Shown piece by piece: positions 8,673-24,056 of a stretch of DNA of 64,000 bases. The translations under genes were made by a program, and so were the position numbers. This stretch comes from Photobacterium halotolerans DSM 18316 (GTDB taxonomy: Bacteria > Pseudomonadota > Gammaproteobacteria > Enterobacterales > Vibrionaceae): positions 310,001 through 374,000 of the forward strand of contig NZ_KE384319.1 in NCBI RefSeq assembly GCF_000425165.1, written 5' to 3'. Positions within the stretch are counted from its first letter, which is position 1, and the number at the start of each line of letters is the position of its first letter. Below the pieces are notes generated by a model that worked only from the letters and a program-made list of their open reading frames with translations, had not been told where the DNA came from and did no database searches.

Positions 8673-8914
8673 GCAAAGACGACATCAGGATCCTGATCAT
8701 GGAAGCCATACAAAGTATCGCTCCGGAAATCATCGAAGCGGACATTGCCCCGGATGAGGATCTGCGCGAAGCATGCGATCTCGACTCAATGGATTTTCTT
8801 AACCTGTTGGCTGCTCTGAAGAAAAGCTGCGGTGTAAACATCCCGGAAACTGATTATCAGCACATCAGAACCTTCACGGGCCTGGTTGACTATCTGAATG
8901 AGCACTTAGCTTAG
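8669..8914 (+). CDS. Acyl carrier protein, last gene of the E1/E2 operon
   Basis: This acidic 81-residue protein has the fold signature of acyl carrier proteins. The phosphopantetheine attachment serine is in CDLDSMDFLN near residue 40, in place of the usual DSLD/DSVE. It is distinct from the fatty-acid AcpP by its sequence and by its position in a 2-oxoacid dehydrogenase operon. The ATGA overlap with E2 means the two are translated together. I infer that it accepts an acyl group either from the AMP-forming synthetase at the start of the operon or from E2. No ketosynthase or other polyketide enzyme is encoded nearby, so the destination of the acyl group is unknown. Confidence 0.85.
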   Translation: MSKDDIRILIMEAIQSIAPEIIEADIAPDEDLREACDLDSMDFLNLLAALKKSCGVNIPETDYQHIRTFTGLVDYLNEHLA

Positions 8915-8942
8915 TGCAGCCTGGCAGACAGGGGGTTCCCCA

Positions 8943-11669
8943 TTACACCTGCTGTCCGGTGCGAATACCGTGCAAGTGCAGGCGAAGCTGTTTCTCAATC
9001 TCGAGTATCGCAAAAAATACACATCCGACGACAAAGATAATCATCCCCTCCCAGAACGGAATAGCCACTGTACCGAAAAGTATCTGTAATGGCGGTAGAT
9101 ACGTCATGGCAAATTGGGCCACTGTGACACAGATAACTGTCAGCCAGACAACCTTGGTGCCTGCGATCAATTCCCATTTCAACGATGTACCATAAATATT
9201 TCTGATGAAAAACAGGTGGAATATCTCCATGACAACTAATGTATTGAGTGCAATTGTACGTGCCAGCTCTAAAGAATACGCCTGATCAACAGCGTAGGCA
9301 TACATGCCGAACACGCCCCCAAGCAGCAGGACAGAAACAAAAACAATACGCCATGCCAACTCTCCGTTCAGCAATGGTTCATTGCGGGGACGCGGTGGCC
9401 GGTGCATGGTATTAGCCTCCGTTGGCTCAAAAGCCAGGGCAATCCCCAGAGTAATCGCGGTGATCAGGTTGACCCATAAAATCTGGATGGGCGTTATCGG
9501 CAGTGTCATCCCAAATAGCAGGGCTACCACAATCGTCAACGCCTCACCGACACTGGTTGGCATCGTCCAACTGATGACCTTTTTGATATTGTCGTACACC
9601 GTCCGTCCTTCACGAACCGCAGCGACAATTGACGCAAAATTATCATCCACCAGGACGAGTTCGGCGGCTTCTTTCGCCGCTTCACTACCTTTGAGTCCCA
9701 TGGCTATCCCGGCATCGGCACGCTTGAGCGCAGGCGCATCATTGACACCGTCACCTGTCATCGCAATGGTCATGCCATGAGATTGTAATGCCATCACAAG
9801 CCGCAATTTATCCTCCGGGCTTGTTCGGGCAAAGATATCCGTATCTATTACAGCCGACGCCAGCGAATAATCATCCATGCTGTCAAGGTCGGTGCCCGTC
9901 AACACCTTGTCAGGGTTTTGCAAATGAAGTTTTTTTGCGATCGCGGCGGCGGTGCCCTTGTGATCACCGGTAATCATTTTTACCCGGATACCGGCAGTAT
10001 GGCATTCTGCAATCGCTTCAATGGCTTCAGGACGCGGCGGGTCAATCAAGCCAACAATACCAATCAATATCAGATCCTGCTCAACATCAGTGAACTCTAG
10101 AACCGTGTGCTCCGGTGGCACTGATTTGACAGCAAAGGCAAGTACACGCTGTCCTTGAGCCGCAATTTCCTCAGCTTGTTGATGCCAGTAACTGACGTCA
10201 AAAGCTTTACTTTTACCAGTCACAGTGCGTTGCTGGGCACACATCAAAAAGATTTGCTCCGGTGCGCCTTTTACCGCAACTAACGCGTGGTTTTCGTGGT
10301 CATGATTGAGTGTGGCCATGAAACGGTGTTTAGCATCAAAAGGAATGGCATCAGTCCGCACCCAGCCTCCGAGTTCCGCCTGAATATCAATGCCAATTTT
10401 ACCGGTCAGGGCAAGCAAAGCGCCTTCCATCGGGTCACCAACGACAACCCACTCCCCATCGTGATGGCGTAAAGAGGCGTCATTGCACAATGCAGCGACA
10501 CGGCCAAGCTCTTGCAGGATAGCATCTTCACTCGTACTGACTGCCACTGCATTTAACCGGATTTCACCTTCCGGCTCGTACCCTATCCCACTCACTGAGA
10601 AATCATGGGCGTCGGTCACGACAGACACGGCCATCATCTCGTTACAAGTCAGTGTGCCTGTCTTATCCGTACAGATTACCGATACCGATCCCAGCGTTTC
10701 AATGGCCGGCAAACGCCGAACAATAACATTACGGCGTGCCATGGCCTGCACACCAACAGCCATAGTGATAGTCAGCACCGCCGGAAGTCCCTCTGGAATA
10801 GCGGCCACTGAGAGACCCACGACAGCCATCAGCATATCCGAGAAAGCAAAATTACCAACGAAATACCCATAGGCCAAAAGCACGGCTGCAATTAACAGAA
10901 TCAGGGCAGTTAACCATCGTGCAAACACATCCATCTGTCTGAGCAAGGGTGTTGTTAGCATTTCAATAGTTGACAGCATGCCACTGATACGGCCGATTTC
11001 TGTGTCAGCACCGGTGGCAACAACAACTCCCCACCCCAGCCCGCTGGTCACAAGCGTACCACTGTACGCCATACACATTCTGTCACCGAGAGCGGTATTC
11101 ATTGCAACGGCGTGTATGTCTTTCTTAACGGGGACCGACTCACCCGTCAGTATTGCTTCCTGAACCTGAAGGCCATTCACCTGAAAAAGCCGGAGATCGG
11201 CGGGCACCTTATCTCCGGCTTCAATCAACACTATGTCTCCGGGCACTAACATCTCGCCTTCTACCGTATGGCGCATTCCTTCTCGCAGCACCGATGCTCT
11301 CAGTGCGAGCATATGACGAATGGCATCCATCGCCTGCTCAGCCTTCCCCTCCTGAATAAAACCTATGACCGCATTCACTATGACGACGGCCAGAATCACA
11401 AGCGTATCTGCCACATGCCCGAGCATAGCTGTCATGGCAGAAGAACCAAGAAGCACGTAGATAAGAATATTATGAAACTGCTTCAAAAAACGAAACAGAG
11501 AATGTGGTTTTGGGGGCGTAGGCAAACGGTTTGAACCATAAATGGACAGACGTTTTGCCGCTTCTTCAGAAGAAAGGCCGTTTTTATGCGAATTCATTGC
11601 ATCAATGGCATCTTCTGATGCCATTTCGTGCCATTCCCTCTTTTCCCGGCTCTCTGCTCGACGCTGCAT
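8943..11669 (-). CDS. P2-type cation-transporting ATPase
   Basis: This 908-residue P-type ATPase has an N-terminal cation_ATPase_N domain, the actuator LTGESVPV near residue 175, the phosphorylated Asp in CTDKTGT at residue 335, TGDGVNDAPAL, and about ten membrane helices. Helix M4 has AAIPEGLPAV as in SERCA-type calcium pumps. However, M5 reads TSVGEA where SERCA has an Asn, and M6 reads NLITAIT where SERCA has a coordinating Asp (NLVTD). The classical two-site calcium pocket is therefore incomplete and the ion is uncertain. The gene is convergent with the preceding operon and divergent from PEP synthase. Start ATG 11669 keeps the conserved WH before the first helix; an internal ATG at residue 16 is possible. 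Confidence 0.85.
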   Translation of the reverse strand: MQRRAESREKREWHEMASEDAIDAMNSHKNGLSSEEAAKRLSIYGSNRLPTPPKPHSLFRFLKQFHNILIYVLLGSSAMTAMLGHVADTLVILAVVIVNAVIGFIQEGKAEQAMDAIRHMLALRASVLREGMRHTVEGEMLVPGDIVLIEAGDKVPADLRLFQVNGLQVQEAILTGESVPVKKDIHAVAMNTALGDRMCMAYSGTLVTSGLGWGVVVATGADTEIGRISGMLSTIEMLTTPLLRQMDVFARWLTALILLIAAVLLAYGYFVGNFAFSDMLMAVVGLSVAAIPEGLPAVLTITMAVGVQAMARRNVIVRRLPAIETLGSVSVICTDKTGTLTCNEMMAVSVVTDAHDFSVSGIGYEPEGEIRLNAVAVSTSEDAILQELGRVAALCNDASLRHHDGEWVVVGDPMEGALLALTGKIGIDIQAELGGWVRTDAIPFDAKHRFMATLNHDHENHALVAVKGAPEQIFLMCAQQRTVTGKSKAFDVSYWHQQAEEIAAQGQRVLAFAVKSVPPEHTVLEFTDVEQDLILIGIVGLIDPPRPEAIEAIAECHTAGIRVKMITGDHKGTAAAIAKKLHLQNPDKVLTGTDLDSMDDYSLASAVIDTDIFARTSPEDKLRLVMALQSHGMTIAMTGDGVNDAPALKRADAGIAMGLKGSEAAKEAAELVLVDDNFASIVAAVREGRTVYDNIKKVISWTMPTSVGEALTIVVALLFGMTLPITPIQILWVNLITAITLGIALAFEPTEANTMHRPPRPRNEPLLNGELAWRIVFVSVLLLGGVFGMYAYAVDQAYSLELARTIALNTLVVMEIFHLFFIRNIYGTSLKWELIAGTKVVWLTVICVTVAQFAMTYLPPLQILFGTVAIPFWEGMIIFVVGCVFFAILEIEKQLRLHLHGIRTGQQV

Positions 11670-11872
11670 TGTCTGATAAAACCCCTTTATCCTCTTAGCG
11701 CTTTGGCCACTACACCATTAATGGCAGGCTCTGATGAGGAATCAAGGCTGATAACAAGAAATCGATTATTCCAGCATAACTTGACTCACCTTTTGAGTGT
11801 GAACTCCTAAAATAAAATGAGTCTTAGCTCTGAGTCCATCAGCAACATCAGAATGTCCAAAAGGAGAGCAGT
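11670..11872. promoter_or_regulatory. Divergent promoter region of P-type ATPase and ppsA
   Basis: This 203-base spacer serves two divergent genes. It contains short inverted repeats around 11780-11812 (for example GAGT and ACTC arms around GTGA) and AT-rich hexamers near 11805-11820 that could be the ppsA -10. The ppsA ribosome site AAGGAG ends eight bases before its ATG. No FNR box (TTGAT-N4-ATCAA) was found. Confidence 0.4.
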
Positions 11873-14305
11873 ATGACTTCCGCCCACCACAACACTGCCA
11901 GCCCGCTCATTTATTGGTACCACCAACTACGCGTAACCGACATTCCTTTCGTTGGCGGTAAAAATGCCAGTTTGGGTGAAATGATTAGCCAGTTAAAAGA
12001 GACGGGCATAAAAGTGCCGGTAGGTTTTGCCACCAGCGCCCAGCTCTTTCGCGACTTTCTGAAACAAAATCAGCTTGATGAACCCATTGCCCAACTGCTG
12101 GCAGATATGACTGCCGGCGCTATAACGCTGACAGACACAGGCGAAAAAATCAGAGCACTGATCGCCCAGGGTCGTTTCACCACAGAGCAAGAAGAGGCTA
12201 TTACCCTTGCTTATCAACAACTTTGTGAGCAACTGAAAACCGCCAATGTCAGCGTTGCGGTCAGAAGCTCAGCCACGGCTGAAGACCTGCCTGACGCCAG
12301 CTTTGCCGGTCAGCAGGAAAGTTACCTCAATATTTGCGGTCATGAACAGGTACTGCAGGCCTGCCAGCAATGCTTTGCCTCACTTTATACAGACAGGGCG
12401 ATTGTCTATCGTCAGGAAAAAGGCTTTGCTCACCAGCAGGTGGCCTTGTCGGTTGGCATTCAGCAAATGGTGGAGTCTGAAGCAGCCGGAGTGATGTTCA
12501 GTTTAGATACTGAAAATGGGTTTCCCGATGTCGTGATTATCAATGGTGCGTGGGGGCTTGGGGAAACTATCGTTAAGGGTAGCGTCACACCTGATCGTTT
12601 CATGGTTTACAAGCCGCTTCTGGAGAAACCTGGCAAGCGCCCTATCATCGAAAAACAACCCGGCAATAAACAACTTAAGATGATTTATGCATCCCAACAT
12701 CACAAAGATGATCCGGACAACGGCCAGACTGTCGTGCTTCCGACAACCGAGCAAGAACGCTGCGCATTGGTTCTGTCTGATGATGAAATTTTACAACTGG
12801 CTCGCTGGGCAGTGATTGTAGAACGCCATTACGGTTGTGCTATGGATATGGAATGGGCTAAAGACAGTCAGGGGCTCTATCTGGTCCAGGCCCGCCCCGA
12901 AACCGTGGAATCACAAAAGCAACAAGCTGTTCTGGTGAACTACAGTCTGAAAGAAAAATCGACCCTGTTGCTGGAAGGCGCCAGCGTTGGTAGCGCGATC
13001 GCTACGGGCCAGGTTTGTCTGATCAGCGATCCGCACCAGACCGATCAATTTCCGCAAGGTGCCATTCTGGTCACCGAAAGGACCGATCCAGACTGGGTGC
13101 CCTTGATGCGAAAAGCCGCAGGGATCATCACAGATACCGGCGGCCCGACCAGCCATGCGGCTATCGTCAGCCGAGAACTGAAAGTACCGGCCATTGTGGG
13201 TACTGAGCATGCGACCCGGAGCCTGACTGACGGACAAGCGGTCACATTAAGCTGTGCCGGCGGGACTGTCGGGCAAGTGTACGAAGGCATCTTACGTTAT
13301 GACACCCAGCAGGTGAACCTGGATGAGATTCCGCGTACCCAGACGGCTGTAATGATTAACGCAGCCATGCCAGATGGTGTCTTTCGCTGGTGGCAGTTAC
13401 CGGTTGACGGGATTGGTCTAACCCGGATCGAATTCATGATTTCAAGCCAGATCAGAGTCCATCCTATGGCACTGCTCCACCCCGAAAAAGTGACAGACCC
13501 AGCGGTTCGTCAAACGATCAACCAACTGACTGAAGGCTATGCTTACCCGCCGGATTACTTCACCCATCATCTGGGGATGGGTGTGGGGAAAATTGCAGCC
13601 TCACAATATCCGAAACCCGTCATTGTCAGAATGTCAGACTTTAAATCCAATGAATATCGGGGCCTGCTGGGCGGTGAATTCTTCGAACTCCACGAAGAAA
13701 ATCCAATGCTGGGCCTGCGTGGGGCTTCTCGCTATTACCATCCGCTGTATCGTGAAGCGTTTAAACTGGAGTGCCAGGCCATCGTAAAGGCTCGCCAGGA
13801 GATGGGCTTTGATAACATCATAGTGATGATCCCATTCTGCCGTACTACCGGTGAAGCCGATAAAGTGTTGGATGTCATGGCTGAAGCAGGGCTGAAACGT
13901 GGTGAAAACGGTCTGCAGGTGTATGTGATGTGCGAGATCCCCTCGAACGTTATTCTGGCAGACCGGTTTGCACAACGCTTTGACGGTTTCTCAATCGGCA
14001 GTAACGATCTCACCCAGTTAGTTCTGGGGATAGACCGTGATTCAGCCGAACTAAAACCATTATTTGACGCAAGGGACGATGCAGTAAAAGAAATGATCGC
14101 CCGGGTGATCACTGTCGCGCACCAGTATGGCTGTAAGGTTGGGATCTGTGGCCAGGCGCCGTCAGATTACCCGGAATTTGCCGAGTTTTTGGTAAATTGC
14201 GGGATCGATTCGATCTCTCTGAACCCCGACTCTTTCGCCAAAGGGTGCCAGCAAATCGCGCAGGCAGAACTCAAATACCCAATTAATACTGCCGGCCACG
14301 AATAA
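11873..14305 (+). CDS. ppsA: Phosphoenolpyruvate synthase
   Basis: This 810-residue enzyme converts pyruvate, ATP and water to phosphoenolpyruvate, AMP and phosphate. The N-terminal ATP-grasp part shows VGGKNASLGEM and AVRSSATAEDLPDASFAGQ. The swivelling domain carries the phosphorylated histidine in GGPTSHAAIVSRE at residue 428. The C-terminal TIM barrel has GSNDLTQLVLGIDRD and the catalytic cysteine in GICGQAPSD at residue 759. Length and order match E. coli PpsA (792). A strong AAGGAG ribosome site precedes the ATG. The gene is convergent with the formate dehydrogenase operon, leaving only 43 bases between the two stops. In context it would move pyruvate back to PEP next to a pyruvate-dehydrogenase-like operon. 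Confidence 0.95.
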   Translation: MTSAHHNTASPLIYWYHQLRVTDIPFVGGKNASLGEMISQLKETGIKVPVGFATSAQLFRDFLKQNQLDEPIAQLLADMTAGAITLTDTGEKIRALIAQGRFTTEQEEAITLAYQQLCEQLKTANVSVAVRSSATAEDLPDASFAGQQESYLNICGHEQVLQACQQCFASLYTDRAIVYRQEKGFAHQQVALSVGIQQMVESEAAGVMFSLDTENGFPDVVIINGAWGLGETIVKGSVTPDRFMVYKPLLEKPGKRPIIEKQPGNKQLKMIYASQHHKDDPDNGQTVVLPTTEQERCALVLSDDEILQLARWAVIVERHYGCAMDMEWAKDSQGLYLVQARPETVESQKQQAVLVNYSLKEKSTLLLEGASVGSAIATGQVCLISDPHQTDQFPQGAILVTERTDPDWVPLMRKAAGIITDTGGPTSHAAIVSRELKVPAIVGTEHATRSLTDGQAVTLSCAGGTVGQVYEGILRYDTQQVNLDEIPRTQTAVMINAAMPDGVFRWWQLPVDGIGLTRIEFMISSQIRVHPMALLHPEKVTDPAVRQTINQLTEGYAYPPDYFTHHLGMGVGKIAASQYPKPVIVRMSDFKSNEYRGLLGGEFFELHEENPMLGLRGASRYYHPLYREAFKLECQAIVKARQEMGFDNIIVMIPFCRTTGEADKVLDVMAEAGLKRGENGLQVYVMCEIPSNVILADRFAQRFDGFSIGSNDLTQLVLGIDRDSAELKPLFDARDDAVKEMIARVITVAHQYGCKVGICGQAPSDYPEFAEFLVNCGIDSISLNPDSFAKGCQQIAQAELKYPINTAGHE

Positions 14306-14348
14306 CCCGCAACAGGTCCTGAGGCATAGTTTGTACGCTCTTTGCTCT

Positions 14349-15197
14349 TTAAGGACCCGCCGGGATGTACTGTTTCAGGTCATCCCAGCGAAACGTGGGG
14401 CCATCGGAACACACATACTTGTCTTTCAGGTAACAGTGCCCACAGGTTCGGACCCCGCAGTGCATGCGGCGTTCAATCGACAGATAAATAGCCTGTTCTG
14501 ACACCCCGCTGGCGACCAGATATTTAGCCACCGCAAACATCATAGCTTGCGGGCCAGCCAGCAGCACCACATCCGGGCCTTGAGCAAACTGACCCAGCAC
14601 AGTGGGCAGAATATCGACCGGGGTACCGCCGGATTCATTTTCGCCCGGCTCAGTGTTACCGTCCTCAATCATATTAAAAACCGGGATGACCTGCTGCCAA
14701 TACCTGCGTTCCGGCGTCAACATCTTCAACTGACGGTTTCGTGCTCCGTACACCACCATCAGTTGGGTGTAATTTTGTTGTTCAATGAGCTGATTCACCA
14801 CTCCGACCAAAGGTGCCAGGCCGCAGCCACCGCCGACAACAAGCACCCTTTTATTGCACACTTTATCCATCGGCCAGCCTTTACCATAGGGCCCTTTGGC
14901 CCCCAGGATCTGCCCGGCTTCGAGCTCAAACAAGGCTGAAGTCACACTGCCAATTTTTCGGACCAGCGCACGAAAATTCCCATGTTGATCAGGAAGTTGT
15001 GTAAAAGTGAACGGCGCTTCACCCACAGAAGGCAGGCATAGCATGAAAAACTGTCCTGTCTTTGCCTTCATCCAGTTATCCTGTGCCTTCGTGGTCTGAG
15101 ATGCCGTATTTAGCAGACGAAAGGTAAAATGGCGGGCATGCTCACCATCATCATAAAAGTCGATCAGTCGAACGGCTGTTGGCGTGAGACTATACAT
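14349..15197 (-). CDS. Sulfhydrogenase gamma (HydG)-like FAD/NAD(P)-binding [2Fe-2S] subunit
   Basis: This 282-residue flavin reductase belongs to the ferredoxin-NADP reductase fold. An N-terminal FAD barrel is followed by the nucleotide-binding GGGCGLAPLVGV near residues 118-130. The C-terminal cysteine cluster CGVRTCGHC plus a fourth Cys after KDKYV would hold a [2Fe-2S] centre. This is the layout of the HydG/gamma subunit of group 3b NAD(P)-linked [NiFe] hydrogenases and of AsrB. No hydrogenase subunit is present here. Instead it is the last gene of an operon with a molybdopterin formate dehydrogenase and overlaps the HydB-like gene by eight bases. I infer that it exchanges electrons between the Fe-S subunit and NAD(P). 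Confidence 0.85.
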   Translation of the reverse strand: MYSLTPTAVRLIDFYDDGEHARHFTFRLLNTASQTTKAQDNWMKAKTGQFFMLCLPSVGEAPFTFTQLPDQHGNFRALVRKIGSVTSALFELEAGQILGAKGPYGKGWPMDKVCNKRVLVVGGGCGLAPLVGVVNQLIEQQNYTQLMVVYGARNRQLKMLTPERRYWQQVIPVFNMIEDGNTEPGENESGGTPVDILPTVLGQFAQGPDVVLLAGPQAMMFAVAKYLVASGVSEQAIYLSIERRMHCGVRTCGHCYLKDKYVCSDGPTFRWDDLKQYIPAGP

Positions 15198-16218
15198 CTT
15201 TCACTATCCTTTTCATGACCGAATGCACCCCGATGACGCCCGGGCAAGTCTGCTCACAGCGCCCGCAGCCGACACAGCCATACCGCCCAAATTCTGGCAA
15301 GAAATCATCACTGAATTTGTGGTACCAAAAGCGCTTCACCCGCTCACCGGCCTGCTCTGCGGGATTATGCAAACTGGCCTCACGCTGAAACCCTTCGTAC
15401 AAACACGAATCCCAGAAGCGCACCTGCCGGGCCTGAGACGGCGGCTTATCAGGGGCGTCTTGCAACACAGCCTGATTTTGTGTGCCGTAACAAGAGCAGG
15501 TCGGACACAAAGTGGTGCAGCCGGAACACGCAATGCACTGAATGGCGACCTGCTGCCAGAACGCATCCGACACCTGGCCACGGTTCAGTTTTTCAATGCC
15601 TTCCAGAATATAAGAATGATCGTCGAACTCATGCTCGCACTGGGTCAGGTTGTCCGAGCGCAAATTTTTAGCATGACCTGTTGCAGGCGTCAGTGCCAGA
15701 CCTTGCAGTGCGGCACGGCCTGGTTCCGTCACCACAATCAATAACCAGCTATCATCGTCAAGTGGATGCAAAATCAGATCGGCCGTGGTATCTCTGACCC
15801 CCGGCCCGGCATCGACCAGATTGCAAAAACCATTCTGGCAAGGATGAACACAATCCACGCCGACCAGTAAGGCTTGCTGTCGCCGGGCCTGATAATAAGG
15901 ATCCTGTTCAAAAAAGATGTCCTGATAGTGAATCGCCATCAGATCGCAGCTCTGAACCCCAAACAAAACAAAAGGTTCTGGTTTCGGTATGGTTTCACGA
16001 AAAAACTGACCATCGAAGACATATAAGGTCTCCTGTTCGGCAAAGAAAAAGCTTTTGGCTGAACTCAACGGCCGCTGCTGACTCAGTGCCGGAAAGGGGG
16101 GCTGCGCTTGATGCTGCCAATGCGCGTCACCATGGTTATCGACTATCTGGTACAACTGGCGACTCTGGGATAAATGCACTTGCAGTTGCTGAAGTGAGTT
16201 AAGCACATACTGCTGCAT
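15190..16218 (-). CDS. Sulfhydrogenase beta (HydB)-like 4Fe-4S electron-transfer subunit
   Basis: This 342-residue protein of the HydB/AsrA family has a large N-terminal domain with the family motif QSCDLMAIHYQDIFF. Two C-terminal [4Fe-4S] motifs follow: CIACSGCTTLCPTC and CVGCGRCEQTCPG, both C-x2-C-x2-C-x3-C. An additional cysteine set, CVHPCQNGFC, lies mid-protein. The reading frame is open for 25 codons upstream. The ATG at 16218 is chosen because it lies one base after the formate dehydrogenase stop with a GGAGG ribosome site inside the end of that gene. The subunit would relay electrons between the formate dehydrogenase catalytic subunit and the HydG-like flavoprotein. Confidence 0.87.
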   Translation of the reverse strand: MQQYVLNSLQQLQVHLSQSRQLYQIVDNHGDAHWQHQAQPPFPALSQQRPLSSAKSFFFAEQETLYVFDGQFFRETIPKPEPFVLFGVQSCDLMAIHYQDIFFEQDPYYQARRQQALLVGVDCVHPCQNGFCNLVDAGPGVRDTTADLILHPLDDDSWLLIVVTEPGRAALQGLALTPATGHAKNLRSDNLTQCEHEFDDHSYILEGIEKLNRGQVSDAFWQQVAIQCIACSGCTTLCPTCSCYGTQNQAVLQDAPDKPPSQARQVRFWDSCLYEGFQREASLHNPAEQAGERVKRFWYHKFSDDFLPEFGRYGCVGCGRCEQTCPGVIGVHSVMKRIVKDV

Positions 16219-16219
16219 G

Positions 16220-18310
16220 TTACTGCCCCTCCAATAAGCGATCGATATCTTTAGGCTCCTGCCCCGGTGGTAATGGCACCACAGACACGGCACATGCTTT
16301 CAGCTCAGGCATTTTCGTGATTGGATCCTGCGCGGTATTCGTCAGTTGGTTCGACGGGGCTTCTTTGAAATGGTATGGCATTGACACCAGGCCCGGAGGG
16401 ACATCATCGGTGATCATGGCGCGAGTTTCCACATAGCCCCGGCGAGAGCGGATCCCTACCGGCGAGTAACGCTGAATATGCAGTGCTCTGGCATCTTCCG
16501 GGTTGATGAAGAGTAGTCCCGCAGGCGTTTCCCGTTCCAGCAAAGGAGATTTTCGGGTCATAGACCCACAGCCGTAGTGACAAGAGAGCCGGTTCGTGGT
16601 CAGGATAAGTGGGTATTGTTCGTCGGCCGTTTCATCAATATCAATCTGGTGTACCGGGATCAATCTTGCCTTACCGATAGGAAAAGCCGTTTGATGCAAG
16701 ATAGCCGTTCCTTGTGGTGCATCCTGGTTGCAGGGCCACTGTAAACCATGCGCCAGTTCAATCCCTGAATAGGTCATGCCCTGATACGACGGCGTCAGCG
16801 AGGCCATCTCGTCAAACACAGCCTCACTGTTAGTCCAGCTGAGCGCATGGCTGCCCAGTGTTTCAGCCAATGCCTTTAACCACTGCCAGTCGCCCATAGC
16901 TAAACCCGGTGGCTGCACGGCCTGAGCAATATGCTGTACCCGCCGCTCGCAGTTGGTAAAAGAACCTTCTTTTTCCGCAAAAGATGCTGCTGGCAAAATG
17001 TAATCGGCCAGCTTGGCGGTCTCCGTCATGGTCAATTCAGCAACCACCAGCAGATCCATTTTCTTCATGGCAGCGCGAACATGATTCTGATCAGGGTCAG
17101 TCACCACGGGATCTTCGCCGAATAAAATCAGACCACGAAACTCACCGGCCAGTGCCGCTTTGGTCATACTCAGCGACGTCAGCCCCGGTCGGGTTGCAAC
17201 CGTCTCTCCCCAGGCTTGCGCAAACTTGCCTTGCGCAGAGATATCCTCAACCGCCTGATAACCCGGATACACATTCGGCAGGCAGCCCATATCGCATGCG
17301 CCCTGCACATTATTTTGTCCGCGTAACGGGTTGATGCCTGTACCGGGACGGCCAATCTGACCACAAACCAAAGCCAGATTAGACAGCGCAATCACATTCG
17401 AAGTCCCGCTGACAAACTGTGTGATCCCCATGCCGTACAGAATCATGGCACTTTTCGCCCGGCCATAGAGTTCCGCGACTTGCCGGATCTGAGCGGCGGC
17501 AACGCCGGTGCCCGACTCAGCCAGCTCAGGGGTGATTGTCTCCACACTACGCGCCAGGGCATCAAACCCCTCACAGCGCTGACTGATGAAAGACGCGTCA
17601 TACAGCTTTTGCTTGATCAGAACATGTAACATCGCATTGATGAGCGCGATGTTGCTGCCCGGTTTCAGCTGAAGATGCACATCCGCCATTTTGGCCAGCC
17701 GGGTCACTCTGGGATCAATGACCACCAATTTCGCCCCTCGCTGCCGGGCTTCAATAATCTGCCCGCCGAAAACGCTGTGATTCTCCGTCGGATCCGCACC
17801 GATCACGACAATCAACTCGGTGTCGAAAATATCTTTGGTGCTATTGGTCATCGCACCGGAGCCTAAGGTTTGTTTCAGCCCGGCAACCGTGGGGCTATGG
17901 CAAATACGGGCACAATGATCGATATTGTTGGTCTTCAGGACGGCTCTGGCAAATTTCTGAGCAGCATAGTTGTCTTCATTGGTTGCACGTGCGCTGCTGA
18001 TAACCCCCACAGCATCCGGGCCGGACTCAGCCTGAATATCCCTTATCGCCTCACTGATCTCATTTAATGCCTCATCCCAACTGACCGGATAAAAGCGATC
18101 ATGAATCCGCTTCAGCGGCTCAGTAATCCGGTTGTCAGGACGAATGGCATAAGCTGTGCTCCAGCCTTTTTCACACAGCTTGCCGCGGCTCACGGGGTGA
18201 CTTCGCTGAGGTTCAACTCCGGTCAGCTTGCCGTGTTCATCAATTTTCAGATTGATCCCGCAGCCGACACCACAAAAAGGGCAGACTGTTTTCACTATTG
18301 AAGAAGCCAT
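16220..18310 (-). CDS. Molybdopterin formate dehydrogenase catalytic subunit, Cys-type (FdhF-like)
   Basis: This 696-residue bis-MGD oxidoreductase closely resembles FdhF (formate dehydrogenase H, 715 residues). An N-terminal [4Fe-4S] motif CPFCGVGC with a distal Cys in KLCEKG precedes the catalytic motif CARICHSPTVAG. Cys137 replaces the selenocysteine of FdhF and is followed by the conserved His138. RGQNNVQGACDMG is also family-typical. It lacks the NuoG-like N-terminal ferredoxin domains of larger NAD-linked enzymes, so separate electron carriers are needed; HydB-like and HydG-like genes follow directly. Start codons at 18310 and 18316 are both possible. The gene lies 96 bases downstream of a FocA-type channel gene. 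Formate oxidation or CO2 reduction is the likely reaction. Confidence 0.88.
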   Translation of the reverse strand: MASSIVKTVCPFCGVGCGINLKIDEHGKLTGVEPQRSHPVSRGKLCEKGWSTAYAIRPDNRITEPLKRIHDRFYPVSWDEALNEISEAIRDIQAESGPDAVGVISSARATNEDNYAAQKFARAVLKTNNIDHCARICHSPTVAGLKQTLGSGAMTNSTKDIFDTELIVVIGADPTENHSVFGGQIIEARQRGAKLVVIDPRVTRLAKMADVHLQLKPGSNIALINAMLHVLIKQKLYDASFISQRCEGFDALARSVETITPELAESGTGVAAAQIRQVAELYGRAKSAMILYGMGITQFVSGTSNVIALSNLALVCGQIGRPGTGINPLRGQNNVQGACDMGCLPNVYPGYQAVEDISAQGKFAQAWGETVATRPGLTSLSMTKAALAGEFRGLILFGEDPVVTDPDQNHVRAAMKKMDLLVVAELTMTETAKLADYILPAASFAEKEGSFTNCERRVQHIAQAVQPPGLAMGDWQWLKALAETLGSHALSWTNSEAVFDEMASLTPSYQGMTYSGIELAHGLQWPCNQDAPQGTAILHQTAFPIGKARLIPVHQIDIDETADEQYPLILTTNRLSCHYGCGSMTRKSPLLERETPAGLLFINPEDARALHIQRYSPVGIRSRRGYVETRAMITDDVPPGLVSMPYHFKEAPSNQLTNTAQDPITKMPELKACAVSVVPLPPGQEPKDIDRLLEGQ

Positions 18311-18406
18311 TACCATCCACAATCAATCGGCGGACTCTGGCTTCAGTATAGCAAGCCAGCACAGAGCGGATTGATGCTGCTACAATCTTTGTCTCATGAA
18401 AACAAA

Positions 18407-19243
18407 TTACGGTTTATCCGGGCCAGATGTCGGCTTTCTGAGGTAAATCACGTAATACACCAAGCCGACCAGGACGCTCCCGCCGAGCAAATTTCCCAGA
18501 ATGACAGGGATCAGGTTACTGATCAGGCCCAGCCAGCCCACCGAACCGGCTACTGTCCCCGTGTCGGAAAAGGCCTGTATTAACATGGCTAATGGAATGA
18601 AGAACATATTCGCAATACTGTGCTCAAACCCCGCCGCGACGAAAGCGGAAATCGGAAAAACAATCGCGACCGCTTTATCAATGACACTCCGCCCGGCCAT
18701 TGCCATCCAGATCGCCATACAAACCAGAATGTTACACAACACACCTCTGAAAAATGCGCTCCAGAACGGTAAGCTGCATTTTGTTTCAGCAATCTGCAGA
18801 TAACGCTCTGCAATGACCCCTTGATTCAATTCTGTATGTCCCGATACATACACCAGGACGGCCAGTCCCGCCGCCCCGATAAAGTTTGAACTACATACCA
18901 CCAGCCAATTCTTCAGCAGCTCAGCCGTTGAAATCTTTTTATCGGCCCAGGCCATCGCCAGTAAGTTATTTCCGGTAAACAACTCAGCCCCGGCGACCAC
19001 TACCAGCAACAGTCCCAGCGAGAATGCAGTCCCCCCTAGCATCTGACTGGTGCCAAACCCCAGACTCGCGTCAGACTTGATTATCACAAAGTACAAGGCC
19101 CCCAAGCCAATAAAGGCCCCCGCCAGAATGCCCAGCATGACCATAGACAACAACGGCAGGCGGGCTTTTATCACGCCTATACTGTCGACTTTTTCAGCGA
19201 TTTGCTTCGGTGAAAAGGCATCAAACCCAAAAAGATCAGCCAT
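18407..19243 (-). CDS. Formate/nitrite transporter family channel (FocA-like)
   Basis: This 278-residue inner-membrane protein of the FNT family has six membrane helices. Conserved pieces include LGALYFVI, GAELFTGNN in the loop after helix 3, NFIGAAG in helix 4 and SAFVAAGFEHSIANMF near helix 5. The genomic position as first gene before a formate dehydrogenase supports formate as the substrate rather than nitrite. A GGAG ribosome site precedes the ATG. In the upstream 245 bases the only notable signal on the coding strand is a repeated TTTGACC, twice in 22 bases just before the ribosome site. Confidence 0.88.
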   Translation of the reverse strand: MADLFGFDAFSPKQIAEKVDSIGVIKARLPLLSMVMLGILAGAFIGLGALYFVIIKSDASLGFGTSQMLGGTAFSLGLLLVVVAGAELFTGNNLLAMAWADKKISTAELLKNWLVVCSSNFIGAAGLAVLVYVSGHTELNQGVIAERYLQIAETKCSLPFWSAFFRGVLCNILVCMAIWMAMAGRSVIDKAVAIVFPISAFVAAGFEHSIANMFFIPLAMLIQAFSDTGTVAGSVGWLGLISNLIPVILGNLLGGSVLVGLVYYVIYLRKPTSGPDKP

Positions 19244-19485
19244 GGTTCACTCCGGTCAAAGACGCTTGGTCAAACAAGCTAAGCGGAAGCAGAAGAGATC
19301 GAATATGTCACTTATCCACCTGAAACTGGGCGCTTTAAGGCGAATTTGTCATGGGTAAGTGTAGTACAGAGGGGAAATATGACGTTAAGCGAGGCCGTAC
19401 TCAAACGGAGTTACGGTGACAAGTCAGTCTTTATAAGTCTGATAATCGCCTTTCGCCAGCAAAAGCTCCGCTTTCATTGATCCTG
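19244..19485. promoter_or_regulatory. Upstream region of the focA-fdh operon
   Basis: About 240 bases lie between the focA-like start and the terminator of the GMC remnant. The promoter of the formate operon must be here. I looked for sigma-54 (GG-N10-GC) and FNR sites on the minus strand and did not find a convincing one. Confidence 0.35.
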
Positions 19486-19514
19486 AAAAAGCGCCTGCTT
19501 CCTTCAGCAGGCGC
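19486..19514 (-). terminator. Rho-independent terminator of the GMC remnant
   Basis: An 8-base-pair GC-rich stem (GCGCCTGC with GCAGGCGC) and 8-base loop at 19491-19514 are followed on the minus strand by a T run. It lies 29 bases past the stop of the GMC-like frame. Confidence 0.85.
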
Positions 19515-19542
19515 TGTTATTCCATATCCAGACTTTCAGGCG

Positions 19543-20367
19543 CTATTTCGCGGACAGTTTATCCGCCAGATCCTGTGCCAGTGCAACCATGGTCAGTGTC
19601 GGGTTCCAGGAACCGCCCTGTGGCCAGAGTGCCCCGCCGGTAACATACACATTGCTGGCGCCTTTGAACCGGTAGTCTAAATCAACCGGTGCGTCCGTCT
19701 GAGTGCCGATATGCAGGGTTGAACTTTCATGCACTGGCGCATCCACCCTGATAGCAGATTGTTCAGGACGCGCCGTCTTCCAGTCGCCTTCATCCGGCGC
19801 ACCATGCCAGTACTGCACAGCCGTTTTGCCTTTAGGTGACAGCACGGTTTCCAGAATATTGAACGTCGCTTCGTCCATCGCCGTCCAGGTTTGTTTGTCT
19901 TTGCCGTTTTCTTCGATCTGCAGCAGGGAGTTGGTTGTAATATTCGAATCATCGCTGTTTTGCAGGAACCAGCTGCCCGGGTTGGTGTAATCCAGCTCTC
20001 CCAATACGGCGCAGACAAAAACAACATGATCTTTTGATGACAGCAGCTGCGCCATAGAAGCAGTCGCCACGACATCCGGCATATAACGCAGCGCTGTAGG
20101 CGAATTCACGACCGGGTTTTCATCCCACAAGGCAGACAGCTGAATATGGTATTGCTGCTCATAACTGTTATTCGCAATACCGGCTACGTAGCAGGCCCCC
20201 AGCTCCAATCGTCCCAGATCGGCAGCCGGATCCAGATCGGCTTTCGGCACACGCGCGACAATAGAGCTGATAAAATGCGCCGAAAAGCGCTGCCCTAACC
20301 CCGTCAGCTCTGCTCTGCTCTGCTCTGCTCTGCTCTGCTCTGCATGATGCTGTGACAGACAGTGCAT
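19543..20367 (-). pseudogene. GMC oxidoreductase, C-terminal fragment with repeat at its 5' end
   Basis: The 274-codon frame matches only the C-terminal half of glucose-methanol-choline oxidoreductases. It includes the end of the substrate domain (ARVPKADLDPAADL, QYHIQLSAL), the active-site histidine in VHESSTLHIG and the closing TGGALWPQGGSWNPTLTMVALAQDLADKL. The N-terminal FAD-binding half of about 300 residues (GxGxxG motif) is missing. Upstream of residue 23 the frame runs into seven copies of a pentanucleotide, read as repeats of A-E-Q-S-R. Beyond the repeat the DNA shows no GMC similarity and then the MATE gene ends. No good ribosome site precedes the ATG. The most likely reading is a 5'-deleted gene that may not be expressed. 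Confidence 0.75.
20307..20341. repeat. Pentanucleotide microsatellite (GCTCT)x7
   Basis: Seven perfect copies of GCTCT (AGAGC on the coding strand) cover 35 bases, with a further GC after them. The tract lies inside the first 20 codons of the GMC-like frame. A change of one unit shifts the frame, and each frame upstream of the tract has a different potential start (20367, about 20345 and 20440), so copy-number change would alter which start is in frame. Confidence 0.97.
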
Positions 20368-20623
20368 AACAAATAGGAAAGCAGGGTGAAAAATGACAAT
20401 TTATTTCTTGTATCAGGACGTGTTTAGTTCGGAATTTCAACGCATGTTGAAACTGCAGAGAGAATGAGACGCGTCAGTTACACGCCAGTGTGATGCTCAG
20501 CGGCAGGTGAAGTCGCCACGAATAGCCAGCCTGTGATTTCGCAAGCCGGCTATAACTATAACTATGGCTATGACGGTAGCAGAAGATAACGGCAGAAGAA
20601 GGTCATCAATACCGGTGCTTTGT
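20368..20623. other. Spacer between MATE gene and GMC remnant
   Basis: No intact gene is seen in these 256 bases. Around 20550-20573 a degenerate hexamer repeat (TATAAC, TATAAC, TATGGC, TATGAC) would read as Tyr-Asn/Gly/Asp on the plus strand, but its short frame has no start. Confidence 0.5.
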
Positions 20624-21994
20624 TTAGCCGGCCACCAGATTATTCATCCAGGCTTTTGAGCGAATACGTATGCTGGAACCAACGATTTTCACCACTTCTT
20701 CCAACACCAGCATGGCGTAAACCCATTCCAGCGGAAGTTTCAGCACAAAGGCACAAAATGCGGTCAGCGGGATCCCTATCATCCATTGCGCCGCAATATC
20801 CTGATAAAAACAGAAACGAATATCACCACCTGCCCGTAACACGCCCACTATCATGGTCATCGGCAGGCTTTTCACTATCATACCGACGCAAAAAATCATG
20901 AAGAAATGTTCGGTCAGATCCCGGGTTTCCGGCGTCATGGCAGCAAACAAATCCAGCACAGGATCGCGGATCAGGAACATGAACGCTGCTGTGACCACAG
21001 CAAAACCAAAATTGATCACAGTAACAGCCCAGGCCTGCCGGTAAGCCTGCTCCATGTTACTGCCGCCCAACTGATTGCCAATCAGCACGGCTGACGCATT
21101 AGAAATACCAATCAGCATCGCCAGCGCCAGTGACTCGATAGGCGTCATCACAGATAAAGCCACCAAACCATCGACACCGGCCTGCCCGATAATAACGTGA
21201 TACATGAAGATCCCGCCCGACCAGGCAAGATGGTTAAAGGTGGTAGGCAGCGACAGTTTCAGGAAGCGGTTTATCATCTGAGCATTAAAGACTTCAGGAA
21301 ACAGCGACCAGCGCAGCGCAATCGGGTGATCCTTGAGATGCAGATAACCAAATAACAGCGCGATTTCAACCAGACCGCTGATAGCCGTTGCCCATGCAGC
21401 ACCGGCAATGCCGTAAGCCGGCATCCCCAGATTACCGAAAATCAATACCCAGTTCAGGAACAGGTTAAGCGCAATGCCTACGGCACTGAACAGCGTGCTG
21501 ATCGCAGGCTGATGCATAGCCCGTAAACCCACAGAGACACTGCTGCCCCACGACACAGCGTACAAACTCACGGCGGTAATTTGCAGGTACTCGGCGCCCC
21601 GGGCAATCACCTCAGGATTATTGGTCGCTAATCCGATCACCTGCTCAGGAAGCACCAGAAATACCAGCGCAGCCAGTGTGGCGACCAGGGTTGTCATGGT
21701 CAGCGTCAGCGCAACACTTTGCTTCATGCCGTGCTGATTGCCAGCGCCCCAGTACTGAGCCGCCAGTAAGGCACCGCCCGTCGTCACCCCGAACAGCATA
21801 ATAGTGACAACAAACAGTGCCCGGCCAGCAATACCGATTGCCGCCACATCCAGTTCATTTAACTGACCCAGCATCAGAATATCAACCAGACTACGGCTGG
21901 AAAACAGCATAACCTGTAAGGCAATAGGAAAAGCAATCGCCAGCAGGCGACGGACAAACACCCCTTCAAATAAAGGAGAAGCAGATGGCGACAT
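20624..21994 (-). CDS. MATE-family multidrug/cation efflux transporter
   Basis: This 456-residue membrane protein has twelve predicted helices arranged as two MatE repeats. Family signatures include PIALQVMLFSSRSLVDILMLG in helix 1 and ALLAAQYWGAGN and VLIGNQLGGSN at equivalent positions of the two halves. It would export drugs or metabolites using sodium or proton gradients; the substrate is unknown. The frame is open for ten more codons upstream. The ATG at 21994 is chosen because an AGGA ribosome site lies seven bases before it. It stands alone between the GMC remnant and the DUF2913-like gene. Confidence 0.9.
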   Translation of the reverse strand: MSPSASPLFEGVFVRRLLAIAFPIALQVMLFSSRSLVDILMLGQLNELDVAAIGIAGRALFVVTIMLFGVTTGGALLAAQYWGAGNQHGMKQSVALTLTMTTLVATLAALVFLVLPEQVIGLATNNPEVIARGAEYLQITAVSLYAVSWGSSVSVGLRAMHQPAISTLFSAVGIALNLFLNWVLIFGNLGMPAYGIAGAAWATAISGLVEIALLFGYLHLKDHPIALRWSLFPEVFNAQMINRFLKLSLPTTFNHLAWSGGIFMYHVIIGQAGVDGLVALSVMTPIESLALAMLIGISNASAVLIGNQLGGSNMEQAYRQAWAVTVINFGFAVVTAAFMFLIRDPVLDLFAAMTPETRDLTEHFFMIFCVGMIVKSLPMTMIVGVLRAGGDIRFCFYQDIAAQWMIGIPLTAFCAFVLKLPLEWVYAMLVLEEVVKIVGSSIRIRSKAWMNNLVAG

Positions 21995-22133
21995 ACATAT
22001 TCCTGAAAAATAAGGAGAGCACAAGAAAAGCGACAGGCCGGATTTTATACTGGCCCTTTCAAATCACAAACCGAACCGACCTGTTATTTATGCTATCTGG
22101 CAGGCTACAAACCGTGATAAACCTAATAAAAAT

Positions 22134-22160
22134 ATAAAAAATGCAGCGAACTCGCTGCAC
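22134..22160 (-). terminator. Rho-independent terminator of the DUF2913-like gene
   Basis: TGCAGCG and CGCTGCA form a 7-base-pair stem at 22142-22159 with loop AACT. On the minus strand it is followed by at least six T residues, 12 bases after the stop of the gene at 22172. Confidence 0.8.
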
Positions 22161-22171
22161 TTTGATGTCTC

Positions 22172-22828
22172 TTACTCAACCGCTCGCGTGGGGAGTTCGG
22201 GAAGATAATCACCGGCATTATCAGGGTACAGAATATATTCACCGTGGTATTTCACCAGCGACTTATAGTCAGTGACTTTGTACAGCAGTAATCCTTGCTG
22301 ATAAGCCAAATCAATACATTGCTGGATATTGCCGCGAACATAAACCGACAATGGCTTAGCAAGCCTTCCTGCCTCATCAAATGCTTCTTTTAACTGCTTA
22401 GCACACACTACCAATGACGCCTGACCATCGGTATGGTGGGTCACTTTTCGGTTCACTTCGTATTCTGTCGCCACCACCCAATCGAGCTGCTGCAGCGCAC
22501 TATAAAAAGCATCCAGTTGTTCAGCCTTCACTGCACTGGTGGTGCCTTCTTCCGTCAGCACACCCGACAATGCCCAGCCAAGGTGTTCAAACTTCAGCTT
22601 CAGCTGTGCCTGCTTACCCATACTGCGAGCCATCTGCTGCCAGCCCAGCAAGGTTTTCGCCACACAATGATCATAGCGTTGCTGCTTAATCACTTTGGTG
22701 ATCCAGGCACTCATAAAGTGCGTTTCGCTGACCGGATTATTGGGGGTTTTGCCTGCTGTAACAGAAGACTGCAACTCAGCCAGACCTTCATTCACCAGTT
22801 TATTCAGCTCTTGATAAAACACAGCCAT
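22172..22828 (-). CDS. DUF2913-like protein of unknown function
   Basis: This 218-residue soluble protein has no signal peptide or membrane segment and is rich in Lys, Gln and Leu helices. By memory of the family it resembles DUF2913 proteins, found mostly in Vibrionaceae. The N-terminus (FYQELNKLVNEGLAEL) and the C-terminal stretch LAYQQGLLLYKVTDYKSLVKYHGEYILYP are the most recognisable parts. Nothing in the sequence indicates an enzymatic activity. It is followed by its own terminator and lies 37 bases downstream of the Bcr-type transporter stop on the same strand, so it may share that transcript. Confidence 0.65.
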   Translation of the reverse strand: MAVFYQELNKLVNEGLAELQSSVTAGKTPNNPVSETHFMSAWITKVIKQQRYDHCVAKTLLGWQQMARSMGKQAQLKLKFEHLGWALSGVLTEEGTTSAVKAEQLDAFYSALQQLDWVVATEYEVNRKVTHHTDGQASLVVCAKQLKEAFDEAGRLAKPLSVYVRGNIQQCIDLAYQQGLLLYKVTDYKSLVKYHGEYILYPDNAGDYLPELPTRAVE

Positions 22829-22865
22829 AATTTTACTTTCAAATACTCTTATTCAATCACAGGTA

Positions 22866-24056
22866 TCAGGCGTCTTTCGCCAATCCCCAATAAAACAAGC
22901 AGGCTAAGACTGCGCAAGCGGCCATCGTTCCTGCCAGCGGCCAGGCTGTGGTATCTGGCATCGCTGCTACAATACCGCCCACCACAGTACCTGTGCCGAA
23001 ACGCATTGTACCAGCCAATGACGAAGCCGTACCCGCCATATGCGGATACTTGGCTAACAAACAAGCCATTGAATTACTGGCAACGGTAGAAATCGCGCCC
23101 ACAAACAGCATAACCGGTATCACAACGCCCCACAGGCCGAGTTCAAACACTTGTCCTGCAATCAGCCCGGCCCCGGCAATCAATTGAATGATCAGGCCCA
23201 AACGCAGCATATAATGTGAGCCCATTTTGCGTACCAGCTTGCCATTTAAGGTGGTCATTACAATCAGGCAGATCACGTTCAGGCCAAACAACAGGCCGAA
23301 GTTTTCCGTACTGACATGGTAAAGATCGATGTACACAAAAGATCCGACAGTAAGGAAAACAAACATGCCCGCAAACGAAAAACCGCTGCTCACCACCAGA
23401 CCGAGCGCGGGGGCTGATGTCAGCATGCGCGCATAATTTCTGAGCGTGGAACCTAAATGAAACGGCAATCGTTTCTCAGCCGGCAGGGTTTCAGGAATCA
23501 TTTTCAACACGGCCAGAATAACAATCACTGAAAACAGAGCCAGAAACCAGAAAATGGAACGCCAGCCGAACCAGACGGACAGGTATCCCCCTATCATTGG
23601 CGCGGCCAATGGGGCAATTGTCATCACTAAGGTGACAAAAGACATGGTACGGGCGAACTCTTCCCGTTCAAACATATCCCGCACCAGCGCCTGAATAATA
23701 ACGGCGGCAGAGGCACCGGCAAAGCCTTGCGCGGCACGTATCCAGGTCAGTTCATTAATGTTATGACTCATTGCACTGACCACTGCGGCCAGTGCGAAAA
23801 GCATTATACCGATTATCAGTACCGGGCGACGGCCGTAGCTGTCTGAAAGCGGGCCATGAATAAGCTGTCCAACGGCAAAACCTGCGGTATACGCTGTCAG
23901 GGTCACCTGCACCAAACTGGGGCTCACGCCCAGATCTTTTGCGATAGTTGGCATTGCAGGCAGGTACATATCAATTGCCAGCGGTGTGAGTGCGGCAATT
24001 GCCCCCAGGATGAGGATCAGCGAAAAGCTCAGGCCAGGACTGTCAGATTTATTCAT
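22866..24056 (-). CDS. Bcr/CflA-family multidrug MFS transporter
   Basis: This 396-residue major facilitator protein has twelve helices. The start ALTPLAIDMYLPAMPTIAKDLGVS and the helix 2-3 loop GPLSDSYGRRP are hallmarks of the Bcr/CflA drug:H+ antiporter subfamily, and APMIGGYLSVWFGWRSIFW matches helix 5. It would pump out small drugs, perhaps bicyclomycin-like compounds or sulfonamides; the natural substrate is unknown. A second member of this superfamily (emrD) lies 16 kb away. Nested inverted repeats about 120 bases upstream (TTGTGAT...ATCACAA, 24173-24193) may be an operator. Confidence 0.9.
   Translation of the reverse strand: MNKSDSPGLSFSLILILGAIAALTPLAIDMYLPAMPTIAKDLGVSPSLVQVTLTAYTAGFAVGQLIHGPLSDSYGRRPVLIIGIMLFALAAVVSAMSHNINELTWIRAAQGFAGASAAVIIQALVRDMFEREEFARTMSFVTLVMTIAPLAAPMIGGYLSVWFGWRSIFWFLALFSVIVILAVLKMIPETLPAEKRLPFHLGSTLRNYARMLTSAPALGLVVSSGFSFAGMFVFLTVGSFVYIDLYHVSTENFGLLFGLNVICLIVMTTLNGKLVRKMGSHYMLRLGLIIQLIAGAGLIAGQVFELGLWGVVIPVMLFVGAISTVASNSMACLLAKYPHMAGTASSLAGTMRFGTGTVVGGIVAAMPDTTAWPLAGTMAACAVLACLFYWGLAKDA

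Follow-up and report, generated by a model that had tools for sequence, protein, structure and literature searches.

Which catalytic subunit is served by the electron-transferring proteins HydB and HydG when their genes stand beside a formate dehydrogenase (FDH) gene and not beside a hydrogenase? The question is raised by a gene cluster, focA-fdhF-hydB-hydG, at 14349..19243 of a 64,000-nucleotide stretch of Photobacterium halotolerans DSM 18316 (contig NZ_KE384319.1, positions 310,001 to 374,000), referred to here as the window. A first-pass annotation had predicted a soluble formate:NAD(P) oxidoreductase from these genes. Conserved gene order and partner-specific clades of HydB and HydG support this prediction, and the cluster most likely encodes a formate channel together with a soluble formate:NAD(P)+ oxidoreductase of three subunits. 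The features are as follows:

18407..19243, minus strand: focA, FocA-type formate/nitrite channel, upstream gene of the probable operon
16220..18310, minus strand: fdhF, FdhF-like catalytic subunit, Cys type, short form, 696 amino acids (aa), ATG start (TIGR01591)
17900..17902, minus strand: TGC codon of the active-site Cys137, the selenocysteine (Sec) position in Escherichia coli FDH-H (alignment)
15190..16218, minus strand: hydB, HydB/AsrA-like iron-sulfur subunit (PDB and profile matches)
14349..15197, minus strand: hydG, HydG/AsrB-like subunit with FAD-, NAD(P)-, and Fe-S-binding domains (domain matches)

The gene cluster and its catalytic subunit

The positions and the coupling of fdhF, hydB, and hydG on one strand were confirmed: a single nucleotide (nt) separates the fdhF stop from the hydB start, and the reading frames of hydB and hydG overlap by 8 nt. 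The window scan found no terminator-like site in the 96 nt between the focA stop and the fdhF start. The four genes probably form an operon, and the arrangement is not attributable to chance because its order is conserved in other genera, as described below.

FdhF scored 806.9 bits against the FDH alpha-subunit model TIGR01591, above the cutoff of 666.25, and the proposed Cys-type active site was borne out: the Sec-His pair of E. coli FDH-H (Sec140/His141) is matched in the alignment by C137 and H138. The active-site residues of TIGR01591-type enzymes (Sec or Cys, His, Arg) and the N-terminal 4Fe-4S ligands are all present, as C137, H138, and R330 and as C10, C13, C17, and C46, together with K48. 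In an alignment of 39 rows, C17, C46, K48, C137, H138, and R330 were found in every row; C10 and C13 were found in 38 rows, the remaining row having a gap. The second-best NCBIfam match was the assimilatory nitrate reductase model NasC, which raises the possibility that the catalytic subunit is some other molybdoenzyme. However, the NasC score of 525.9 bits is far below the cutoff of 1100 while TIGR01591 was passed, the Cys-His-Arg set is that of FDH-H, and a FocA gene is the neighbor. Such an enzyme is thus highly improbable, and FdhF is treated as a formate dehydrogenase in subsequent discussion.

A pattern scan of 84,980 species genomes, reaching close relatives only, recovered 33 related loci from Photobacterium, Vibrio, Colwellia, Porticoccus, Oceanicoccus, and others; two of them (L026 and L033) are near-duplicates. 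The synteny check proposed in the first-pass annotation gave a clear answer. The fdhF gene adjoined hydB in all 31 loci with sequence on that side, at a gap of -20 to +2 nt, and hydG adjoined hydB in 32 of the 33, the remaining contig ending inside hydB. The overlap between hydB and hydG was 8 nt in 26 of these 32 loci and otherwise ranged from -29 to +34, with starts set by script. We also sampled 296 Vibrionaceae genomes, 47 of which had a HydB match. Twenty-eight genomes, the window's among them, were counted as operon carriers, defined as having a HydB about 60% or more identical to that of the window, fragments included. FdhF adjoined HydB in 27 carriers (in G099 the contig begins inside hydB), and HydG did so in all 28, divided between two contigs in G144. 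Several genomes are shared between the two samples (G052 and L002, for example, are the same genome), so that loci and carriers are not independent. Of the first 30 of 1529 plasmid records, three were examined: Photobacterium sp. DA100 carries the whole set, including the PEP synthase PpsA2 discussed below, and two candidates were set aside, one from Desulfobaculum, in which the FDH adjoins an [FeFe] hydrogenase, and one from Acetoanaerobium, with no HydB or HydG among its open reading frames.

The first-pass annotation also placed a FocA-type channel as the first gene. This holds for the window, where FocA lies upstream of fdhF, matches PF01226, and passes TIGR00790 (239.6 bits; cutoff, 232.3), but the protein did not reach the FocA equivalog TIGR04060 (229.8 versus 290.1 bits) and the position is not general. 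A FocA homologue was near the operon in 25 of the 33 loci (17 upstream on the same strand, 7 upstream on the opposite strand, and 1 downstream) and in 24 of the 27 Vibrionaceae carriers with sequence on that side. FocA is a recurrent companion, not a fixed first gene.

HydB and HydG and their catalytic partners

The designation of HydB and HydG as diaphorase-type subunits stands, in that Pyrococcus furiosus sulfhydrogenase I was the top structural match for both: its beta subunit was the sole PDB match of HydB (E = 2e-32), and its gamma subunit was the best of HydG (E = 3e-29). In profile searches HydB scored 125.6 bits with sulfhydrogenase HydB, 113.5 with ShyB, and 105.8 with AsrA. The best model for HydG was AsrB (154.3 bits), followed by PRK08345 (142.1), a dihydroorotate dehydrogenase subunit (130.9), ShyC (116.1), and sulfhydrogenase HydG (111.5). 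By these scores the pair is about equally near AsrA/AsrB and the sulfhydrogenase subunits. HydG contains FAD_binding_6, NAD_binding_1, and DHODB_Fe-S_bind domains, so that a flavin/NAD(P) subunit is encoded together with the FDH in coupled genes, as in NAD(P)-linked soluble FDHs.

These features suggest a path for electrons. Formate, produced by pyruvate formate-lyase (PFL) or imported via FocA, would be oxidized to CO2 at a Cys-liganded Mo/W center of FdhF. Electrons would pass from the [4Fe-4S] cluster of FdhF to the clusters of HydB, which probably links the catalytic and flavin subunits, then to the Fe-S center and FAD of HydG, which would reduce NAD(P)+. A module of the kind found in group 3b hydrogenases and anaerobic sulfite reductase would here be partnered with formate dehydrogenase.

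Several results weigh against so specific an assignment. Both proteins fell below every named curated equivalog cutoff. Against the sulfhydrogenase equivalogs NF040833/NF040835 HydB reached 125.6 of 750 bits and HydG 111.5 of 650, making them relatives, not members, and against the AsrABC models TIGR02910/TIGR02911 the scores were 105.8 versus 323.15 and 154.3 versus 288.6 bits. In the CGP motif of the HydG NAD(P) domain the usual Cys is Ala (16) or Ser (1) in 17 Vibrionaceae main-group rows, and inspection of the HydG alignments yielded no residue rule that could be applied confidently to NAD versus NADP preference. The two motifs of this domain are at HydG residues 125 and ~214. The Cys of the GGxCG motif was found in all 28 main-group rows, and the Cys residues of both motifs are kept in the 11 Colwellia- and Porticoccus-group rows.

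In Vibrionaceae, HydB/HydG-like pairs adjoin three kinds of catalytic partner: formate dehydrogenase, [NiFe] hydrogenase, and the AsrC sulfite reductase. This emerged when 20 further Vibrionaceae regions with weaker or intermediate HydB matches were examined. Five (L049 to L053) have a hydrogenase layout; the four scanned scored 249 to 265 bits with sulfhydrogenase large-subunit models, below the cutoff of 700, and the hydrogenases would belong to group 3b. In the next set (L054 to L065), AsrC was above its cutoff in three of the four regions scanned and the fourth had a short partial match; for most of the unscanned regions the same AsrC layout is judged from size only, L064 being different. 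The three regions L046 to L048 carry a second, diverged FDH-HydB-HydG type with about 51% HydB identity, and genome G257 has two copies of this type in addition to a hydrogenase-linked HydB/HydG (L051).

Beyond the family, HydB matches were found in 97 of 369 genomes of a class sample and 29 of 398 of a phylum sample. Among 57 class and phylum loci that were classified, 45 had a hydrogenase, 2 had an FDH, and 10 had neither within the 1.5 kb available. Hydrogenase is the commonest HydB partner seen, and FDH is a distinct minority. In the two FDH-HydB pairs outside Vibrionaceae (L142 in G624 and L143 in G929), HydB identity is 53 and 49%; a P-type ATPase adjoins the L142 pair, and a FocA homologue is near the L143 pair.

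The first-pass annotation had asked whether FDH-linked HydB and HydG proteins form a clade. In a HydB tree of 44 rows, the FDH-linked (31 rows), hydrogenase-linked (4 rows), and AsrC-linked (9 rows) proteins each fell on one side of a branch, with support of 99/98, 100/99, and 100/100, respectively, although the program warned of long branches meeting. The 31 FDH-linked rows were also together in the 45-row HydG tree but with weaker support (94/96), and three distant FDH-linked rows fell among the main group. The main-group rows were retrieved with the window HydB as the query, which biases them toward likeness. Loci L018, L023, and L030 to L033 were excluded from both trees and from the 28-row Cys counts, and split, short, or merged frames led to the exclusion of L058, L064, and L065 from both trees and of L050 from the HydB tree only. 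Because HydB/HydG pairs stand beside three catalytic partners and the HydB tree is divided by partner, the results support the proposed modular swap of formate dehydrogenase for hydrogenase on one electron module.

The division by partner is also visible in individual residues. All 16 Cys residues of HydB were invariant across 28 rows, and 14 of them were common to all FDH-, hydrogenase-, and AsrC-linked rows compared. The other two were C127, found in 31 of 31 FDH-linked rows versus 0 of 13 others, and C194 (28 of 31 versus 0 of 13). In total, 29 HydB positions carried one residue throughout the 31 FDH-linked rows that none of the 13 rows linked to hydrogenase or AsrC had, and 9 HydG positions behaved likewise relative to the 13 or 14 rows with other partners. 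These positions are candidates for partner contacts.

Electrons from HydB and HydG might instead be delivered to ferredoxin, sulfur, or polysulfide, making the complex a formate-dependent sulfur or ferredoxin reductase. Passages of two papers (PMC9686372, PMC10052568) refer to the sulfhydrogenase beta and gamma subunits as sulfur-reductase subunits, and the similar scores on the AsrAB models could be read in the same direction. However, HydG retains its FAD- and NAD-binding domains, and two operon carriers (G087 and G131) own a separate AsrA/AsrB-like pair elsewhere (regions L063 and L061). We regard these acceptors as improbable and NAD(P)+ as the likely one.

Hydrogenases, formate metabolism, and ppsA2 in the host

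The first-pass annotation had noted no hydrogenase subunit and no formate hydrogenlyase gene, and no [NiFe] or [FeFe] hydrogenase was found in the host genome, which is 99.99% complete. The whole genome yielded no match to PF00374 ([NiFe] hydrogenase; found in 5 of 14 control genomes) and none to PF02906 ([FeFe] hydrogenase; found in 1 of 14). The cluster differs from a group 3b [NiFe] hydrogenase in that neither operon nor genome has a large subunit and the catalytic partner is an FDH, and formate hydrogenlyase, which combines FDH-H with a membrane [NiFe] hydrogenase, would likewise need a [NiFe] large subunit that the genome search did not detect. The finding that the first-pass annotation named as damaging to its proposal, a separately located hydrogenase as the partner of HydB/HydG in this genome, was not made: no hydrogenase was found, and the genome has one HydB match only, whose nearest named relative is that of Photobacterium salinisoli (87%). 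Among the host genomes of the related loci, 23 were searched (those of 25 of the 33 loci, less L008 and L015), and 2 had a [NiFe] large-subunit match.

TIGR01591 had eight matches in five reading frames of the host genome, and only the operon FdhF passed the cutoff. Two of the four other frames are YdeP-type, above the TIGR01701 cutoff. The third scored 420.5 bits with TIGR01591, 388.1 with NasC, and 381.2 with NasA, all below cutoff; its longer C-terminus lets it be read, without proof, as an assimilatory nitrate reductase. The fourth has 831 aa. Strictly, the genome could still encode a second formate dehydrogenase. FdhD and PFL are present, both above cutoff. Formate is thus likely produced in this host, and no hydrogenase was found to accept its electrons.

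Formate oxidation by NAD(P)+ is energetically downhill, judging from redox potentials, and a FocA-type channel together with PFL suits a supply of formate. The main activity of the same complex might nevertheless be the reverse one, reduction of CO2 with NAD(P)H to provide formate for C1 units or, via reverse PFL and PpsA2, for pyruvate and PEP. Consistent with this possibility, the second-best solved-structure match of FdhF was the FdhF of hydrogen-dependent CO2 reductase, and CO2 reduction is the direction proposed for FdhA-HydB-HydG in the available passages of PMC12142623. Fdh3 of Thermococcus onnurineus does reduce CO2 with NADPH, but at 1.0 U/mg versus 77.4 U/mg for NADP+-linked formate oxidation (PMC8965080). 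Mainly reverse operation is unlikely on balance, and formate oxidation is the direction expected of the complex.

Downstream of hydG lies a further gene:

11873..14305, plus strand: ppsA2, second phosphoenolpyruvate (PEP) synthase paralogue, convergent (TIGR01418)

The stops of ppsA2 and hydG are 43 nt apart. PpsA2 scored 1054.5 bits with TIGR01418 (cutoff, 739.75) and is 48% identical to PpsA1, encoded at C1:296372 of the host genome. Of 52 genus genomes searched, 14 had the PpsA2 type (73% identity or more) and 8 had neither type. In a 37-row tree the PpsA2 type (24 rows) was split from PpsA1 (13 Vibrionaceae rows) with support of 100/100; the PpsA2-type rows include Colwellia, Porticoccus, and Oceanicoccus, those of the last two being long, and L015, L018, L030, and L033 were excluded.

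At a cutoff of 1e-260, PpsA2 was found in 22 of 296 Vibrionaceae genomes (by number and handles shown, the sample searched for HydB): 21 of the 28 operon carriers versus 1 of the 268 others. In 20 of the 21 genomes with both, it was 0.85 to 2.3 kb from hydB, and in G148 it was on another contig. Of the 33 loci, 21 had a convergent PpsA2 downstream, that of L004 at a distance of 1.5 kb and that of L015 as a 58-residue C-terminal piece only. A number of points count against a functional tie. The Fisher p value for the co-occurrence (3e-25) is not corrected for kinship. Seven carriers (G037, G109, G111, G135, G142, G144, and G227) had the operon without an intact PpsA2 match at the cutoff, one genome (G022) had PpsA2 without the operon, and ppsA2 is on the strand opposite to the operon and so is not cotranscribed with it. 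In G227 a PpsA2 stretch adjoins the operon (contig C2, region L181; best piece, residues 1 to 515), perhaps a disrupted gene; such genes elsewhere would equally escape the strict cutoff. The association may reflect shared inheritance of neighboring genes rather than joint function. Its persistence across several families points to joint function without proving it.

The PpsA2 companion suggests use of the complex during growth on pyruvate-yielding substrates. In this hypothesis pyruvate would be converted partly to PEP via PpsA2, and the remainder would pass through PFL and the FDH complex to yield acetyl-CoA and NAD(P)H. A tentative extension, which we consider possible but doubtful, is that focA-fdhF-hydB-hydG and ppsA2 form one physiological module in Vibrionaceae, Colwelliaceae, Porticoccaceae, and Spongiibacteraceae that splits pyruvate into PEP and, via PFL, NAD(P)H; in its boldest form the module would run in reverse, from CO2 via formate and PFL to pyruvate and PEP.

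Scans of the window for regulatory sites gave little to build on. For anaerobic (FNR-type) control, the FNR consensus gave 53 matches (up to 2 mismatches) versus 38.5 expected, a number equaled or exceeded in 2 of 100 shuffles. The nearest match upstream of focA (19477-19490; 2 mismatches) is 234 nt from the start, and nothing was concluded from it. The 5 promoter-like sites are about as many as chance would give (4.3 expected), and terminator-like sites were fewer than expected (3 versus 5.9). Recent insertion was considered and rejected: G+C is flat over 8000-24000 (0.495 to 0.540), with no compositional sign. A P-type ATPase at 8943-11669, whose best match was a PMR1-type calcium model below cutoff, has counterparts near the operon in 17 of the 33 loci and 20 of the 28 Vibrionaceae carriers. 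It was rejected as a part of the module, as it occurs on either side of the operon and its identity falls to about 35% in the 33-locus set. Upstream of focA, a CTCTG pentanucleotide repeat (~20308-20343) lies close to where the reading frame 19543-20367 begins; this frame, whose only match is to the C-terminal GMC oxidoreductase domain, is possibly a phase-variable or broken gene.

Comparison with known systems

The idea of an FDH-HydB-HydG enzyme is not wholly new. FdhA-HydBC is listed among FDH types in the available part of PMC7382037, and a 2025 proposal, in the passages available, has FdhA of Desulfurivibrio dismutans AMeS2 served by HydB/HydG for CO2 reduction (PMC12142623). A literature search that left most subscription papers outside its reach, judged by titles, abstract openings, and selected passages, found no publication on the gammaproteobacterial FDH-HydB-HydG family or on its PpsA2 link. 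The latter suggests a physiological role that can be tested.

In D. dismutans, as in the window, the FDH catalytic gene adjoins hydB and hydG, HydA and HydD are absent, and NAD(P)H has been proposed as the electron donor of FdhA. In contrast, D. dismutans belongs to another phylum and is an autotroph for which CO2 reduction is proposed, and the passages available contain no tree, family survey, or FocA or PpsA2 link (PMC12142623). T. onnurineus Fdh3, for which NADP-linked formate oxidation is proven, is likewise a cytoplasmic FDH with NAD(P)-binding and Fe-S subunits and a putative formate transporter gene in its cluster. However, Fdh3 comes from a hyperthermophile and is tungsten dependent, it has two small Fe-S subunits and an NAD(P) subunit that was modeled on NfnI, and HydB and HydG are not named in the passages available (PMC8965080).

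Soluble NAD(P)-linked FDHs are relevant to NADPH regeneration and CO2 reduction, and the putative enzyme described here would be a Cys-type example from marine bacteria. The FdsABG-type FDHs are NAD-linked and soluble, with a diaphorase other than HydB/HydG. The catalytic subunit of one such enzyme (PDB 6tg9) has 958 aa versus 696 aa for FdhF. P. furiosus sulfhydrogenase I (PDB 9nez, 9nf0), the only PDB homologue of HydB and the closest of HydG, is partnered with a [NiFe] hydrogenase and not with an FDH, and the window proteins are far below its equivalog cutoffs. AsrA and AsrB are the same kind of electron module and stand beside AsrC in other Vibrionaceae, but AsrC is a different catalytic partner and the AsrC-linked proteins form a separate clade. 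Together with these systems, the FDH-linked family illustrates clearly how, in nature, a single NAD(P)-linked electron module serves hydrogenase, sulfite reductase, and formate dehydrogenase, and because HydB and HydG sequences sort by partner, the partner-specific residues can be read and tested.

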